This document shows, piece after piece, positions 13,048 to 17,734 of a stretch of 43,192 bases of DNA. The position numbers and the translations under genes were made by a program. Source of the DNA: Gemmatimonadota bacterium (lineage in GTDB: Bacteria; Gemmatimonadota; Gemmatimonadetes; Longimicrobiales; Gaopeijiaceae); assembly GCA_029863525.1 (NCBI GenBank), contig JAOTVL010000010.1, positions 1 through 43,192 of the forward strand. The letters run 5' to 3'. The notes below the pieces were generated by a model, which made no database searches, was not told the origin of the DNA, and saw only the letters and a list, made by a program, of their open reading frames with translations. Numbering within the stretch: position 1 is the stretch's first letter; the number at the start of each line of letters is the position of its first letter.

Positions 13048-13170
13048 ATCCGTTCGCACTGCGCGCGGTTCGGCTCCGCGGGGGGCGCGTTTTCAGCGTT
13101 CGGAGACCGGTTGGCGCGTTCGGGTTCACCTTGCCACATTGGAAGGAGACCAACCCGGAGCCGCTGCCAC

Positions 13171-13953
13171 ATGATCGTCGTCCAAGTCTCCGACTCCTAC
13201 CTGAAGCGTGCGGTCCTTCGTGTCGCTCCGCCGGAGGAGGACGTGGTCGTGGACAGCGCGCTCGCGGTCGAGGCGATCGAGCGAGGCTTCCCCCGCTTGG
13301 TCGTGAGGGACGACCGACACACGTGGCCTACGGTGCCTAGCGGCGTGCGCCTCTTCCAGATCAGCGGGGCCATCCTGGCCCGATGGGAAGTGGAGCGGAG
13401 AGCCGTGGCCCTTCCGTCGACCCGCTTGGACTACCTGGCGGATCGGGTCGGAGCGACCATCGATGCCACGCTGGCGGATCGGAATTGGGTCGACACTGCC
13501 TTTGCCGACCTGACGAGGGCGGCGGGTCGCCGACTTCCCGCTCCTCTGCGCGCTTTCGGTCGCCGGATTCTCGAGTTCCCCAGTCACTACACCAGCCTCC
13601 ACCCGCTCGCACAGGCGTGTGGCACGTCGAGAGGAGCGCTGAAGGCTCGTTTCCGGCGACGAGGTCTTTCGACGCCTTCGACCTACGGACGGTGGTTCCG
13701 TATCATGGCCGTGTCCCATGTGCTGTCGGATCGATCGGTGACCGTCGCCGAGGCCGCGAGTCGTCTTGGATTCACGTCGGCCGGCAACATGTGTCGCATG
13801 ATGTGGAACGTGGTGCAGATGACCCCTACGGAGGTCCGATCACTACGCGGCTGGAATCGGTTGCTGATCACCTTCGCGTGGTCACACCTGACGCCCGAGC
13901 TGCTCGAATCCTGGTCGTCGCTCGACGAGCTCTTCGAGCGGAAGACCGCCTGA
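13171..13953 (+). CDS. AraC-type helix-turn-helix protein
   Basis: A 260-residue protein. The C-terminal part has two helix-turn-helix units of the AraC/XylS kind: HPLAQACGTSRGALKARFRRRG (about 144-165) and SVTVAEAASRLGFTSAGNMCRMM (about 189-211), followed by the MTPTEVRSLR stretch that mirrors the P-x-x-x-R end of AraC domains. The N-terminal 120 residues (MIVVQVSDSYLKRAVLRVAP onward) look alpha/beta and could be a degenerate receiver or ligand domain; no phosphoacceptor Asp is obvious. The start is ATG at 13171, with GGAG about 11 bases upstream. It ends against the rpsU terminator, in convergent orientation. Targets are unknown. Confidence 0.75.
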   Translation: MIVVQVSDSYLKRAVLRVAPPEEDVVVDSALAVEAIERGFPRLVVRDDRHTWPTVPSGVRLFQISGAILARWEVERRAVALPSTRLDYLADRVGATIDATLADRNWVDTAFADLTRAAGRRLPAPLRAFGRRILEFPSHYTSLHPLAQACGTSRGALKARFRRRGLSTPSTYGRWFRIMAVSHVLSDRSVTVAEAASRLGFTSAGNMCRMMWNVVQMTPTEVRSLRGWNRLLITFAWSHLTPELLESWSSLDELFERKTA

Positions 13954-14283: not shown

Positions 14284-14967
14284 TCAGGGAAGGCGCCCCT
14301 CGCGATGGAGGGTATGCGCGTAGAGACGGTACGCCTCGGGGTTGCTGAGGAAGTCCTGCGCCCAGGTGTCGAAATCGGGTAGCGGAAGGAGTGCCTCGAT
14401 ATGATCGACGACCATGCGAGCGAACTGGACCCGGTCTTTCGTTCTGAAATCTATCCGCTCTCCCGCGAGGATGTCGTCCACCGCGGACTCGAAGTCCCTC
14501 GGGTCCACGAGGCAGATGAAATGCGAGACCTGGTCGAGCCGGTACGACTCGTACAGGGAGCGCAGTCGATCGGCTTCCCCGTCGTTAGGAATCGGGCCCT
14601 TTTCGCCCGTCCATTCACCGGCGATATCGACCGAGTTTTGCTTGAGGAGTGAACGGAACCGGCCACGTAGGTGATCGCGCGTTCCGTTCTGCTTCGCGTC
14701 GGTGTGGATGGCGGAGTCGAGCAGGCCCTGGAGGAGCGGGCGCCCAAGGCTGCGCGCTTTCAGGTGAATCTCGGACTCCGTGCGCTCGACGAAGATGTTC
14801 GTCGTGCGGACCTCGTCGTCGCGGAGCTCACTGTGGCTGGGGCGAAACGAAAAGTAGCCGTGCCACGAGGCATCCTCGCCGACGAAGGTGACGAGGAAGC
14901 AGGCCCAGCTCTGTTCTCCCCTCTCGAGGAAACCCACAGATCGGCGACGTTCACCGTGGATGCTCAT
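14284..14967 (-). CDS. Unknown protein, two-domain (A-B) member of a local paralogous family
   Basis: A 227-residue soluble protein. Domain A (about 18-88) has SWACFLVTF, WHGYFSF, then VRTTNIFVERTESEI and LLQGLLDSAI. Domain B (about 133-220) has LRSLYESYRLDQVSHFICLV and ALLPLPDFDTWAQDFLSNP. The same two blocks occur in reversed order in the protein at 16129-16689, and block B alone at 17396-17734. I do not recognise either domain from known families and see no catalytic motif. The start is ATG at 14967 without a clear ribosome binding site. It lies 75 bases upstream of rpsU on the same strand, and diverges from 15245 across 277 bases. A function cannot be given. Confidence 0.6.
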   Translation of the reverse strand: MSIHGERRRSVGFLERGEQSWACFLVTFVGEDASWHGYFSFRPSHSELRDDEVRTTNIFVERTESEIHLKARSLGRPLLQGLLDSAIHTDAKQNGTRDHLRGRFRSLLKQNSVDIAGEWTGEKGPIPNDGEADRLRSLYESYRLDQVSHFICLVDPRDFESAVDDILAGERIDFRTKDRVQFARMVVDHIEALLPLPDFDTWAQDFLSNPEAYRLYAHTLHREGRLP

Positions 14968-15244
14968 GGTTGGGCGTGCACGGGTGTGGTCGAATCCGGA
15001 ATCGGGTCACCGAGGACCTGGGAAGATGAATGGGGCGTGAAGGCGTTGCAAGACGATCCGGGTGGGGACGGTACGGATCTTCTTGCCCTCGCCGTGAGCA
15101 GATTGTTAACGTGGGGATCCTCACATACCGGGCCGATCGCGATCGGACGGGCACGAGCACATTCGTGGAGCGTCGCCGATCCCAGGGTCGGGGCGCTCTT
15201 GGCAACGAAGGCCAGTACTTCGTTCCCACGCCGGAGAGCTTCCG

Positions 15245-16132
15245 ATGCATCTGAATCCGACCGTCGCGACCCGTCCCGAAGCCATGGCCGATGTGCCCGG
15301 GATCTGCGAGCTGCCTTTGACCCGCGCGGTCGTGCAGTATCGCGACATGCACGAGATGGATACGCCGGGCGGTCGCATCGAGGACATCGGGCTGGCTCTG
15401 GTGATCGAAGGACGCTATGCGGCGACATCGGAGGTCGTGGATCTGGGCAGTGGAACAGTGAAGGTGCTAGACCTCAGCACCGAGCTGGTCGTCCTCGACT
15501 GGGTCTACGGCCCGACGATCGAGCATGTGGGTGAGCTCATCACTGCGGCCGCCGCGACTCGCGAAGCGGACGAGCTTCGGTCGTACAGCCGGAGGCTCGG
15601 GTTGAGCGTCCTGGAGCGGGTCGGCTTCGGTCCGCTGACGCGGCCCACGTTTCTCCGAATCGGCTTCCGGGATATCTGTCGGGACATGGATCTGCACGAG
15701 GGGACGTCGATTCGGATCGTCCTCGGAACCGGCCGGCTGACCAGGGTGCACCTCGACTACGATGCGTGCGCGCTCGTACTCAGAACCGCGTTCTACGAGC
15801 CCGACTCGGTGCTCGAGCGCGGGCTGTCCGAGGCGTTTCCCGCCGCCGACCTCCGGCGACAGGAGCCAGGCGGGCCGGCTGAAGCCATCGCCTATCACGT
15901 CCGGCTCCCGATTCCGACGACGCTCGCCGAGGCACGGGCCACGTTGGCGAGGATGCGACGCGGCCTGGCCTCACTGATGGCCCGATTCGAGCCCGATCGG
16001 TATGCCGCGCTCGAAAGCCTCATCGAGACCTTCGGCGCGCGCGAGACGTTGAGCTCACTTCAGATTCACGAGCCGCTGACGCACGTGGTGCCGGTCAAGC
16101 CGCCTATCCTCGGCTCCTACGTCATCCATTGA
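15245..16132 (+). CDS. Unknown 295-residue protein coupled to a domain-permuted paralogue
   Basis: A soluble, acidic protein with no signal peptide or membrane segment. It begins with HLNPTVATRPEAMADVPGIC. It alternates strand-like segments (TVKVLDLSTELVVLDWVYGP, TSIRIVLGTGRLTRVHLDYD) with helices, and ends with a helical part (AEARATLARMRRGLASLMAR) and a Pro-rich tail. No conserved enzyme motif is visible. The ATG at 15245 has GGAGAG six bases upstream, a good start. Its stop overlaps the TTG start of the next gene (TTGA), so the two products are probably made together. It lies between two members of the A/B-domain family but does not itself show either block. Confidence 0.55.
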   Translation: MHLNPTVATRPEAMADVPGICELPLTRAVVQYRDMHEMDTPGGRIEDIGLALVIEGRYAATSEVVDLGSGTVKVLDLSTELVVLDWVYGPTIEHVGELITAAAATREADELRSYSRRLGLSVLERVGFGPLTRPTFLRIGFRDICRDMDLHEGTSIRIVLGTGRLTRVHLDYDACALVLRTAFYEPDSVLERGLSEAFPAADLRRQEPGGPAEAIAYHVRLPIPTTLAEARATLARMRRGLASLMARFEPDRYAALESLIETFGARETLSSLQIHEPLTHVVPVKPPILGSYVIH

Positions 16133-16689
16133 GCGTGCCTGCCGCGCGGGCGGAGGCCATCTCGGGGGCCGAGCTCGCGATGCAGTACCAAGCCTACCGG
16201 CGACGGGAAGCACGAGGATTGATCGGGTTGCTTCCCGTCGGGGCGATCCGCCCCTTGTATCGACGAGCACTCAGGGAATCCGGTCAGCGTCCGGACCGCG
16301 ACGATCCGATGCGGCTTCTGGTTTCGTACTGCGAGCGGATCTTGCCGCTCCCGCCCTTCGAGATGTGGCTCGAGGATCGAGGCCGGTTTCCCGCCCAGCA
16401 CTGGGACGCGCTCGAGGGCTCTGCCGAGGTCCCTTCGCCCGCGAGTCCGGCGACGTTCGACGTTCGTACTTTCGCACGCGATTCGGTCGAATGGCGCGCG
16501 TGTCTGCGCGGATTTCGCGACCGCGACGTTTGGCGAGGCTTCATCGCCTTCGAGGACGCCGAGTCCGGGGACGCGGTGTATCGGACGGCGCTCATCTTCC
16601 GCGAGTCCGAGGCTTCGGAGCTCCGGGATCGTTTCCGGAGCTTCGAATCGGGCACCCTGGAGGCGTTTCTCCGGTCGGCTCTCCCGTGA
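16129..16689 (+). CDS. Unknown protein, two-domain (B-A) member of a local paralogous family
   Basis: A 186-residue soluble protein. Domain B comes first (about 16-95): AMQYQAYRRREARGLIGLL, then ERILPLPPFEMWLEDRGRFP. Domain A follows (about 118-186): EWRACLRGF, VWRGFIAF, YRTALIFRESEASEL and TLEAFLRSALP. Each line matches a segment of the protein at 14284-14967, but the order is swapped. The start is uncertain: TTG at 16129 overlaps the previous stop, GTG at 16135 and ATG at 16180 are alternatives, and none has a strong ribosome binding site. An imperfect hairpin with internal T and A runs (16688-16713) covers the stop codon. Function unknown. Confidence 0.6.
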   Translation: MSVPAARAEAISGAELAMQYQAYRRREARGLIGLLPVGAIRPLYRRALRESGQRPDRDDPMRLLVSYCERILPLPPFEMWLEDRGRFPAQHWDALEGSAEVPSPASPATFDVRTFARDSVEWRACLRGFRDRDVWRGFIAFEDAESGDAVYRTALIFRESEASELRDRFRSFESGTLEAFLRSALP

Positions 16690-16824
16690 CGACTTTTTTG
16701 TAAAAACCTCGTCGCAGGGGCAGGGTTTTGCGGATACTCTACGAGCCCTGAAAGCCGGTGTCTTGCTTCGACTTCCGCAATGTCCCACAAGACTCGCGAG
16801 CGCCGACCCACCCTTCGGGAACAC

Positions 16825-16885
16825 ATGGATTTCGGTTTTTGTCACATTTTGTAAGTCTATGTGTAACAATATGTTACGAATCCAT
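16825..16885. promoter_or_regulatory. AT-rich regulatory island with nested inverted repeats
   Basis: The 375-base gap 16690-17064 holds no convincing gene. Within it, GTAACA-ATA-TGTTAC (16863-16877) is a perfect 15-base palindrome. ATGGATT (16825-16831) and AATCCAT (16879-16885) form outer inverted arms. TTTTGT occurs twice exactly 10 bases apart (16837 and 16847). The AT content stands out from the GC-rich surroundings. The arrangement suits a promoter with operator upstream of the ribbon-helix-helix-like gene at 17065. No certain -35/-10 pair can be fixed. Confidence 0.5.
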
Positions 16886-17064
16886 ATGAATTTGGCTTTT
16901 CGTTGCCGGAGGGGGTTGCGCGCTGGCAATTCCGCCTTTACCGTTGTTCTCATTCGAGGTTGCTAGCACCTCCCCGCCGCCCTCTTCGACCCCTACGGCC
17001 GAGAGCCCCGGCACCCCCAGGAAAACGTAACTTTTTCACGCTCAACGTCGGGTCAGGTGTGCCT

Positions 17065-17271
17065 ATGTGGGAAACGCGTTCCGTGCAACTCTCCGTGAGG
17101 CTGCCGCGTGACATCGCCGCACAGGCGGAGGAGGTCCAGGAGAAGGACCCCGAGTTTCTGAGTCGCGTGGTTCTGTACGGTCTGACGCGTCGATCCATCT
17201 ATCGCCATCTGCGTCGGCACGACGAGGGTGGTGAGGAAGCTTCCTTGGAGGTCACACCCCCCGGACCCTGA
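17065..17271 (+). CDS. Small ribbon-helix-helix-like protein
   Basis: A 68-residue protein. RSVQLSVRLPRDIAAQAEEV has the short beta-strand plus first helix pattern of MetJ/Arc-type regulators, and DPEFLSRVVLYGLTRRSIYRHL would be the second helix with its basic end. The tail is acidic and Pro-rich (EEASLEVTPPGP), probably disordered. Such proteins bind DNA as dimers, usually at inverted or tandem repeats, and often regulate their own gene. A palindromic AT-rich region lies about 190 bases upstream. ATG at 17065 has AGG about 9 bases upstream. It precedes a block-B family gene by 124 bases. The fold call is from pattern only. Confidence 0.55.
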   Translation: MWETRSVQLSVRLPRDIAAQAEEVQEKDPEFLSRVVLYGLTRRSIYRHLRRHDEGGEEASLEVTPPGP

Positions 17272-17395
17272 TCGACCGGAAAAAGCTTGCGTTTCTGGGG
17301 CCCCGAGCCCAAACGTTGGCGCGACCGAAGCCTTCGGCTTCCTTTCGCACCCGTTTGAGCCGGGGCGTTTTCGTGTCCTGGTGGGGGGCATCAAC

Positions 17396-17734
17396 GTGGA
17401 CGCAGGCCACAAGGGCTCGGAAGAGCCACTCAACGTCCTGCGCGCCAAGTACCACGATTACTGCTCGGCGCAGGTCGCTGATCTTCTCGTGTACATGAGT
17501 CCCGACGAGATCTACTTGCTCGCGCATCGGGCGTACCGCGAGGAGGGTGGAGAGGGTGAGATCTCCTATGCGGAAATGGTACGGGTCGCGACGGACTGGC
17601 TTTCTAAGCGTGTCGCGTTGCCACCCTTCGACGTTTGGGTCGAGGACTACCGGGCGCACCCGGACCGATATCAGGAGTACTTCTTGGGGTTGTGGGAGTC
17701 GGAGGTCGACTCACTCGATGGTTCGGAGGCGTGA
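17396..17734 (+). CDS. Unknown protein, single-domain (B only) member of a local paralogous family
   Basis: A 112-residue acidic protein made almost entirely of block B: VLRAKYHDYCSAQVADLLVY, then PDEIYLLAHRAYREEG, and SKRVALPPFDVWVEDYRAHP. The Y-x2-Y start, the amphipathic middle and the LPPF-D-x-W-x-x-D end match the B blocks at 14284-14967 and 16129-16689. GTG at 17396 has GGTGGGGGG about seven bases upstream, which decides the start; the frame is open further upstream to 17228 without a binding site. It lies 18 bases from the convergent ssb stop. Block B alone implies it can fold independently. No function is known to me. Confidence 0.6.
   Translation: MDAGHKGSEEPLNVLRAKYHDYCSAQVADLLVYMSPDEIYLLAHRAYREEGGEGEISYAEMVRVATDWLSKRVALPPFDVWVEDYRAHPDRYQEYFLGLWESEVDSLDGSEA

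Follow-up and report, generated by a model that had tools for sequence, protein, structure and literature searches.

What kind of system is formed by a block of uncharacterised genes in which two small domains, here called A and B, are fused in one order in one protein and in the opposite order in another? The question is raised by a window of 43,192 nucleotides from a Gemmatimonadota bacterium of the family Gaopeijiaceae, which is the entire contig JAOTVL010000010.1 (C140) of a 3.6 Mb draft genome. Three open reading frames of domain composition A-B (AB, 14284-14967), B-A (BA, 16129-16689) and B (B alone, 17396-17734) had been described in an initial annotation of this DNA, and all three were confirmed at these positions together with their domains. 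The block that they belong to is real, conserved and undescribed, and has an unusual fusion history. It is also wider than initially annotated, as a fifth gene, P5 (17065-17271), which had gone unmentioned, belongs to it.

Pairwise BLASTP comparisons already detect B between any two of the three proteins (E 3e-7 to 1e-5), and they connect the A domains of AB and BA weakly (E 0.01). Profile-profile comparison of the families, the check proposed along with the annotation, yielded a probability of 98.5% for A of AB against A of BA (E 3.8e-15) and of 99.1% for B of AB against B of BA (E 6.5e-19), while B alone matched B of AB with 98.2% and B of BA with 98.4%; copies of either domain thus match each other with 98-99% probability. 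Regarding the comparisons of A with B, and of A or B with two unrelated neighbour families, the probability did not exceed 2.3%; among 30 controls with shuffled columns, one reached 44% and the other 29 scored at most 2%. A third form, A alone, is encoded by a separate gene elsewhere in the genome (C55:9386-9679 in the source genome) and comprises 93-140 residues; its profile matches A of AB and A of BA with 98%. Each of A and B is a small domain in its own right. The motifs originally given for them (such as W-x-A-x-L for A and LPxPPF for B) are present in general but inexact in some copies (W-A-C-F-L and LPLPDF in AB, ALPPF in B alone). A fold shared by the copies is predicted from sequence profiles, with AB as the one protein among them that was modelled.

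Outward from rpsU, AB lies on one strand (minus), and P4, BA, P5 and B alone lie on the other (plus). AB encodes 227 residues, with A (approximately 14701-14955) preceding B (approximately 14287-14571). P4 (15245-16132) encodes an uncharacterised protein of 295 residues, and its stop codon is overlapped by the TTG start of BA, in which B (approximately 16159-16416) precedes A (approximately 16456-16686); the coupling of these two genes was already part of the annotation and is seen in the window. P5 encodes 68 residues with a strand-helix-helix pattern recognised by eye and adjoins B alone wherever it was read; B alone has a GTG start and encodes 112 residues. Downstream of B alone follow ssb, an enoyl-CoA hydratase-like gene, recF, a DUF721 gene (by name the DciA family of PMC5109545) and gyrB. 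A gene for an AraC-type regulator (Pfam HTH_18; 13111-13953 in the window) adjoins rpsU in about 17 loci; in other loci it is absent or disrupted. In pairs of relatives all five genes of the block are under purifying selection, with ratios of nonsynonymous to synonymous substitution rates (dN/dS) of 0.07-0.31 (0.08 for AB). The fastest-evolving and least stable of the five is BA, which is interrupted by a stop codon in one relative (G001), split in two in another (G016) and without its B half in a third (G032), and is entirely missing in about 13 genomes that retain P4.

Families are labelled in the following as f1 (the own family), f2 and f3 (same order), and f4, f7 and f9 (same class). A scan with the AB profile, covering one genome per GTDB species for all species, yielded 72 AB loci, all from Gemmatimonadota apart from one differently labelled record, and wherever a locus is of sufficient length, the order AB / P4-BA-P5-B is almost always kept, nearly always with rpsU on one side and ssb-recF-dciA-gyrB on the other. 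The exceptional record (L127), labelled Gammaproteobacteria, has the block too and probably represents a mixed bin. A record labelled Gemmatimonas phototrophica (L156) has it as well. Separate profile searches for A and B across genomes, as had been recommended, were carried out within the phylum. B was found in 116 of 298 genomes, including the B domains of AB and BA, and is distributed over f1, f2, f3, f4, f7 and f9, with weak matches only in f5 and f6; A was found in 94 of the 298, including the AB and BA matches. The gene for B alone occurs in the same six families (f1, f2, f3, f4, f7 and f9), and P5 adjoins B in every locus read outside the AB loci, including those of f3, f4, f7 and f9.

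The composition of the block varies around this pair. In f2 it consists of AB, P5 and B, without P4 and BA. Several f1 genera are devoid of AB and have P4-BA-P5-B (G074), P4-P5-B (G110, G201) or P5-B only (G023, G034), and in three of the four f7 loci read an A-like gene follows the B gene and overlaps it. Because P5-B is kept where AB, BA and P4 are missing, it is the constant part of the block: P5 and B alone are the ancient core, and AB, BA and P4 were added later, each being dispensable on its own. In this group of soil and marine bacteria the block is vertically inherited, lineage-specific and located at a fixed chromosome site; it is not mobile. A compact cluster of unknown small genes is also what an anti-phage or mobile system would look like, but the fixed site among housekeeping genes and the near-universal presence in the family make this highly improbable, as does the absence of any match to the five proteins in PADLOC, or in PHROGs, viral contigs and plasmids.

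Duplication with domain shuffling, to which the inverted order had been attributed, is supported and agrees with the B tree: one side of a branch there holds the B domains of AB and BA, the other all B-alone proteins (support 97/94); long branches meet at this split. Because the two fused B domains group against B alone, the simplest reading is a single fused-B lineage in which the order changed later. Whether the A domains of AB and BA are sisters is not resolved by the A tree (approximately unbiased test, p 0.48). The further suggestion that the two domains function together gains support of a genomic kind from the fusions in both orders and, in f7, from the A gene that immediately follows B.

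The core pair is accompanied by a conserved upstream region. Approximately 375 bp upstream of P5 the conservation profile contains a TTTTTTGTAAAAA element (16694-16706), and similar elements are also visible in loci without BA. It is followed by a conserved GGAACA..TGgaTT box (16818-16832, plus strand), a 25-bp dyad (16852-16876) with the consensus TAAGTCGTTGTNNNACAACGACTTA, which is a candidate operator of the P5-B operon, and a sigma70-like promoter (16916-16944, plus strand; TTGCGC, 17 bp, TACCGT), whose -35 and -10 columns are conserved in 63 loci. The dyad of the window scores 25.8, and the runner-up anywhere in the 43 kb scores 4.0. Within the AB loci a dyad is present in all 63 P5 upstream regions examined, with the best-scoring site mostly 215-225 bp before the P5 start codon; at least 14 of 22 consensus positions are reached in 61 of the 63, compared to 3% of shuffles. 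In 1.1 Mb of loci, 66 above-threshold dyads are located upstream of P5 and nine elsewhere, two of which (L131) are likewise upstream of P5; the block-shuffled control yielded five. Regarding f3, f4, f7 and f9, a dyad above the same threshold (score >12) was found at a similar distance in seven of nine P5 upstream regions; in these loci no AB, P4 or BA was detected beside the P5-B pair. There is about one strong dyad site per whole genome, and a control with the reversed pattern yielded none in 39 genomes.

The arms of the dyad pair no more often than expected from independent columns, which rules out an RNA hairpin; as the arms do not covary, the dyad is a symmetric and local DNA site rather than an RNA stem, and presumably a protein-binding one. 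It is most simply read as an operator for the product of the P5-B operon itself, because it follows one small operon through the whole class. Additional dyads were considered as a regulon and rejected: there are at most a few sites per genome, beside unrelated genes or tRNA ends, and they form no pattern. A replication origin or partition site, with P5 and B as its binding proteins, would likewise explain a long conserved non-coding region with a dyad about once per genome, and dnaA is found 11 and 30 kb away in f9. The distance between dnaA and the block is 270-710 kb in complete f1 and f7 genomes, and in a complete f1 genome (G017) the cumulative GC-skew minimum, sampled every 211 kb, coincides with dnaA about 700 kb from the block. 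A replication origin was therefore rejected for f1 by GC skew and dnaA position, and the origin or partition reading as a whole is regarded as very improbable.

A second conserved region (15048-15109) separates AB from P4, and the two genes are transcribed divergently out of it. The conservation profile of 60 loci contains a GCAAG and a CTTGC box, which are likely -35 elements of opposite direction, and a GTTA-type -10 element, so that a divergent promoter region is predicted here.

The five proteins yielded nothing above chance in searches of Pfam, NCBIfam, PADLOC and PHROGs, sequence profiles (including that of P4) found no match in the PDB, and full-text literature searches yielded no account of the locus; the empty searches of every library used agree with the early suspicion of a system undescribed in this lineage. 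AlphaFold2 (AF2) models were built for AB (66 alignment rows, mean predicted local distance difference test score (pLDDT) 85.6) and for P4 (60 alignment rows, pLDDT 86.0). In the model of AB, A forms a four-stranded antiparallel sheet with C-terminal helices and B a bundle of about five helices. A Foldseek comparison of this model yielded nothing below E 0.3 in the PDB and nothing below E 0.02 among viral models. The lists include several entries for Rad52, RecT, Erf and Rad50, all of them non-significant; because their template modelling (TM) scores are low (at most about 0.2-0.25 over the query) and the deviations large, they are a lead at most. For the C-terminal part of P4, the matches to type III secretion chaperones are as weak as those to RNA polymerase K/L subunits (E 0.04-0.06), with SigE and ExsC at E 0.05-0.06, probability 0.75-0.82 and a low TM-score over the query.

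The neighbours of the P5-B pair and of A alone differ among families. In two f9 genomes the order is Ku-LigD-P5-B in one direction, and in a third it is LigD-P5-B (identities read from the sequence, as are those of the other neighbours given here; LigD and P5-B at L238:8238-12878, L239:2877-7759 and L240:7639-11056). LigD is located near P5-B in two f3 loci (L244 and L245), and genes for LexA and ParA are close by in L245. The neighbours of P5-B in f7 are metabolic genes. A alone is the last gene of a conserved run of MoxR, DUF58 and transglutaminase-like genes, present in the source genome (L235:5214-9679 on C55) and in L069, L083, L094 and L254, and this run lies near an AbrB-like small gene and an ATP-binding cassette (ABC) exporter. 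Paired small beta-rich proteins are encoded beside A alone in f9 (L251:6495-7065 and L252:7063-7577); they were considered as distant relatives of A, and this was rejected for want of profile support. No single process links all of these contexts.

The main rival explanation of the block is built on a part of these contexts, namely that its products are accessory proteins of DNA maintenance which act on DNA together with the single-stranded DNA-binding protein (SSB), RecF or the end-joining machinery. It would account for the position of the block next to ssb, recF, DUF721 and gyrB in f1 and f2 and for LigD beside or near the pair in three f9 and two f3 genomes or loci, with Ku in two of the former and LexA and ParA in one of the latter, and the recombination proteins in the AB fold lists point the same way. 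The fold matches have E above 0.02 and TM-scores no higher than 0.25 over the query, however; rpsU and fatty-acid genes lie just as near in f1, the pair has metabolic neighbours in f7, and A alone is found at the tail of the MoxR-DUF58-transglutaminase-like run. On balance this explanation is considered rather unlikely.

The reading put forward here, tentatively and well short of an even chance, is that of a self-regulated regulatory module with P5 as the DNA binder and B and A as partner domains. P5, with its strand-helix-helix pattern, would bind the dyad, which precedes the P5 start by about 215 bp, and thereby set the output of the P5-B operon; B would be the partner, binding either P5 or the target of P5, and A a domain for sensing or docking, in contact with B. 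Having a second B joined to A, the AB and BA proteins may compete with B alone or recruit it. Such a module is in agreement with the retention of P5-B without AB, BA or P4, with the conservation of dyad, box and promoter, with the fusions in both orders and with the order P5-B-A in f7. Several observations weigh against it. Neither P5 nor the distant P5 proteins have a match to Pfam RHH_1 in hmmscan, a genome search with PF01402 omits P5, and in hhalign P5 reaches a probability of 5% with RHH_1 proteins of the same genomes, so that membership in the ribbon-helix-helix family is unsupported. Covariation between P5 residues and dyad positions is not above background, and the dyad precedes the -35 box by about 40 bp, unlike the position of a classical repressor site. 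P5 is proposed as the binder because of its pairing with the dyad, and a protein other than P5 could bind there. As A, B and P4 have no significant fold relative in these comparisons, no biochemical role is suggested by their predicted structures.

The same arrangement, a small strand-helix-helix gene before a small gene of unknown fold with a conserved dyad upstream, might also be taken for a chromosomal toxin-antitoxin pair, with P5 as antitoxin and regulator, B as toxin, and AB and BA as decoys. Across families the pair is found at a single locus with a constant core position, and it is inherited vertically, not in the horizontal and patchy manner of such pairs; there are no matches on plasmids or viral contigs and no toxin or antitoxin matches in PADLOC, Pfam or NCBIfam, and the two proteins in which B is joined to A are under purifying selection. 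A toxin-antitoxin pair is accordingly judged improbable. A more far-reaching reading is conceivable, though less likely than not: A and B may each represent a new domain family with a new fold, and P5-B-A an undescribed cellular module found throughout the class in Gemmatimonadota, for instance a DNA-bound complex formed at one site per chromosome by way of interchangeable A-B fusions.

Gemmatimonadota are common yet hardly studied, and a core locus with several nameless protein families represents a gap in the knowledge of their cell biology. The locus offers one candidate operator per genome, a minimal core of two genes, and natural fusions in both orders, from which contacts between domains can be predicted. 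Should P5-B turn out to be essential or regulatory, it would provide a lineage marker and a new regulatory family.

Compared with known systems, P5 resembles the ribbon-helix-helix proteins (MetJ/Arc; RHH_1, PF01402) in its size, in a stretch VQLSVRLP followed by two helices as seen by eye, and in the dyad before its operon, and differs from them by the missing Pfam match and the low hhalign probability given above. P4 is similar to the class I type III secretion chaperone/YbjN-like fold in the order of its C-terminal elements (helix, three strands, helix, two strands, helix); the similarity is non-significant and without a sequence match, and RNA polymerase K/L chains are equally good. With autoregulated toxin-antitoxin operons the P5-B pair shares the gene for a small putative DNA-binding protein, followed by a second small gene and preceded by a dyad, and it is distinguished from them as a vertically inherited, single-copy core locus without a toxin match, whose B domain also occurs fused to A. 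The parts of the block match nothing known, whereas its layout is of a known kind, on the regulatory reading that of a small self-regulated operon.

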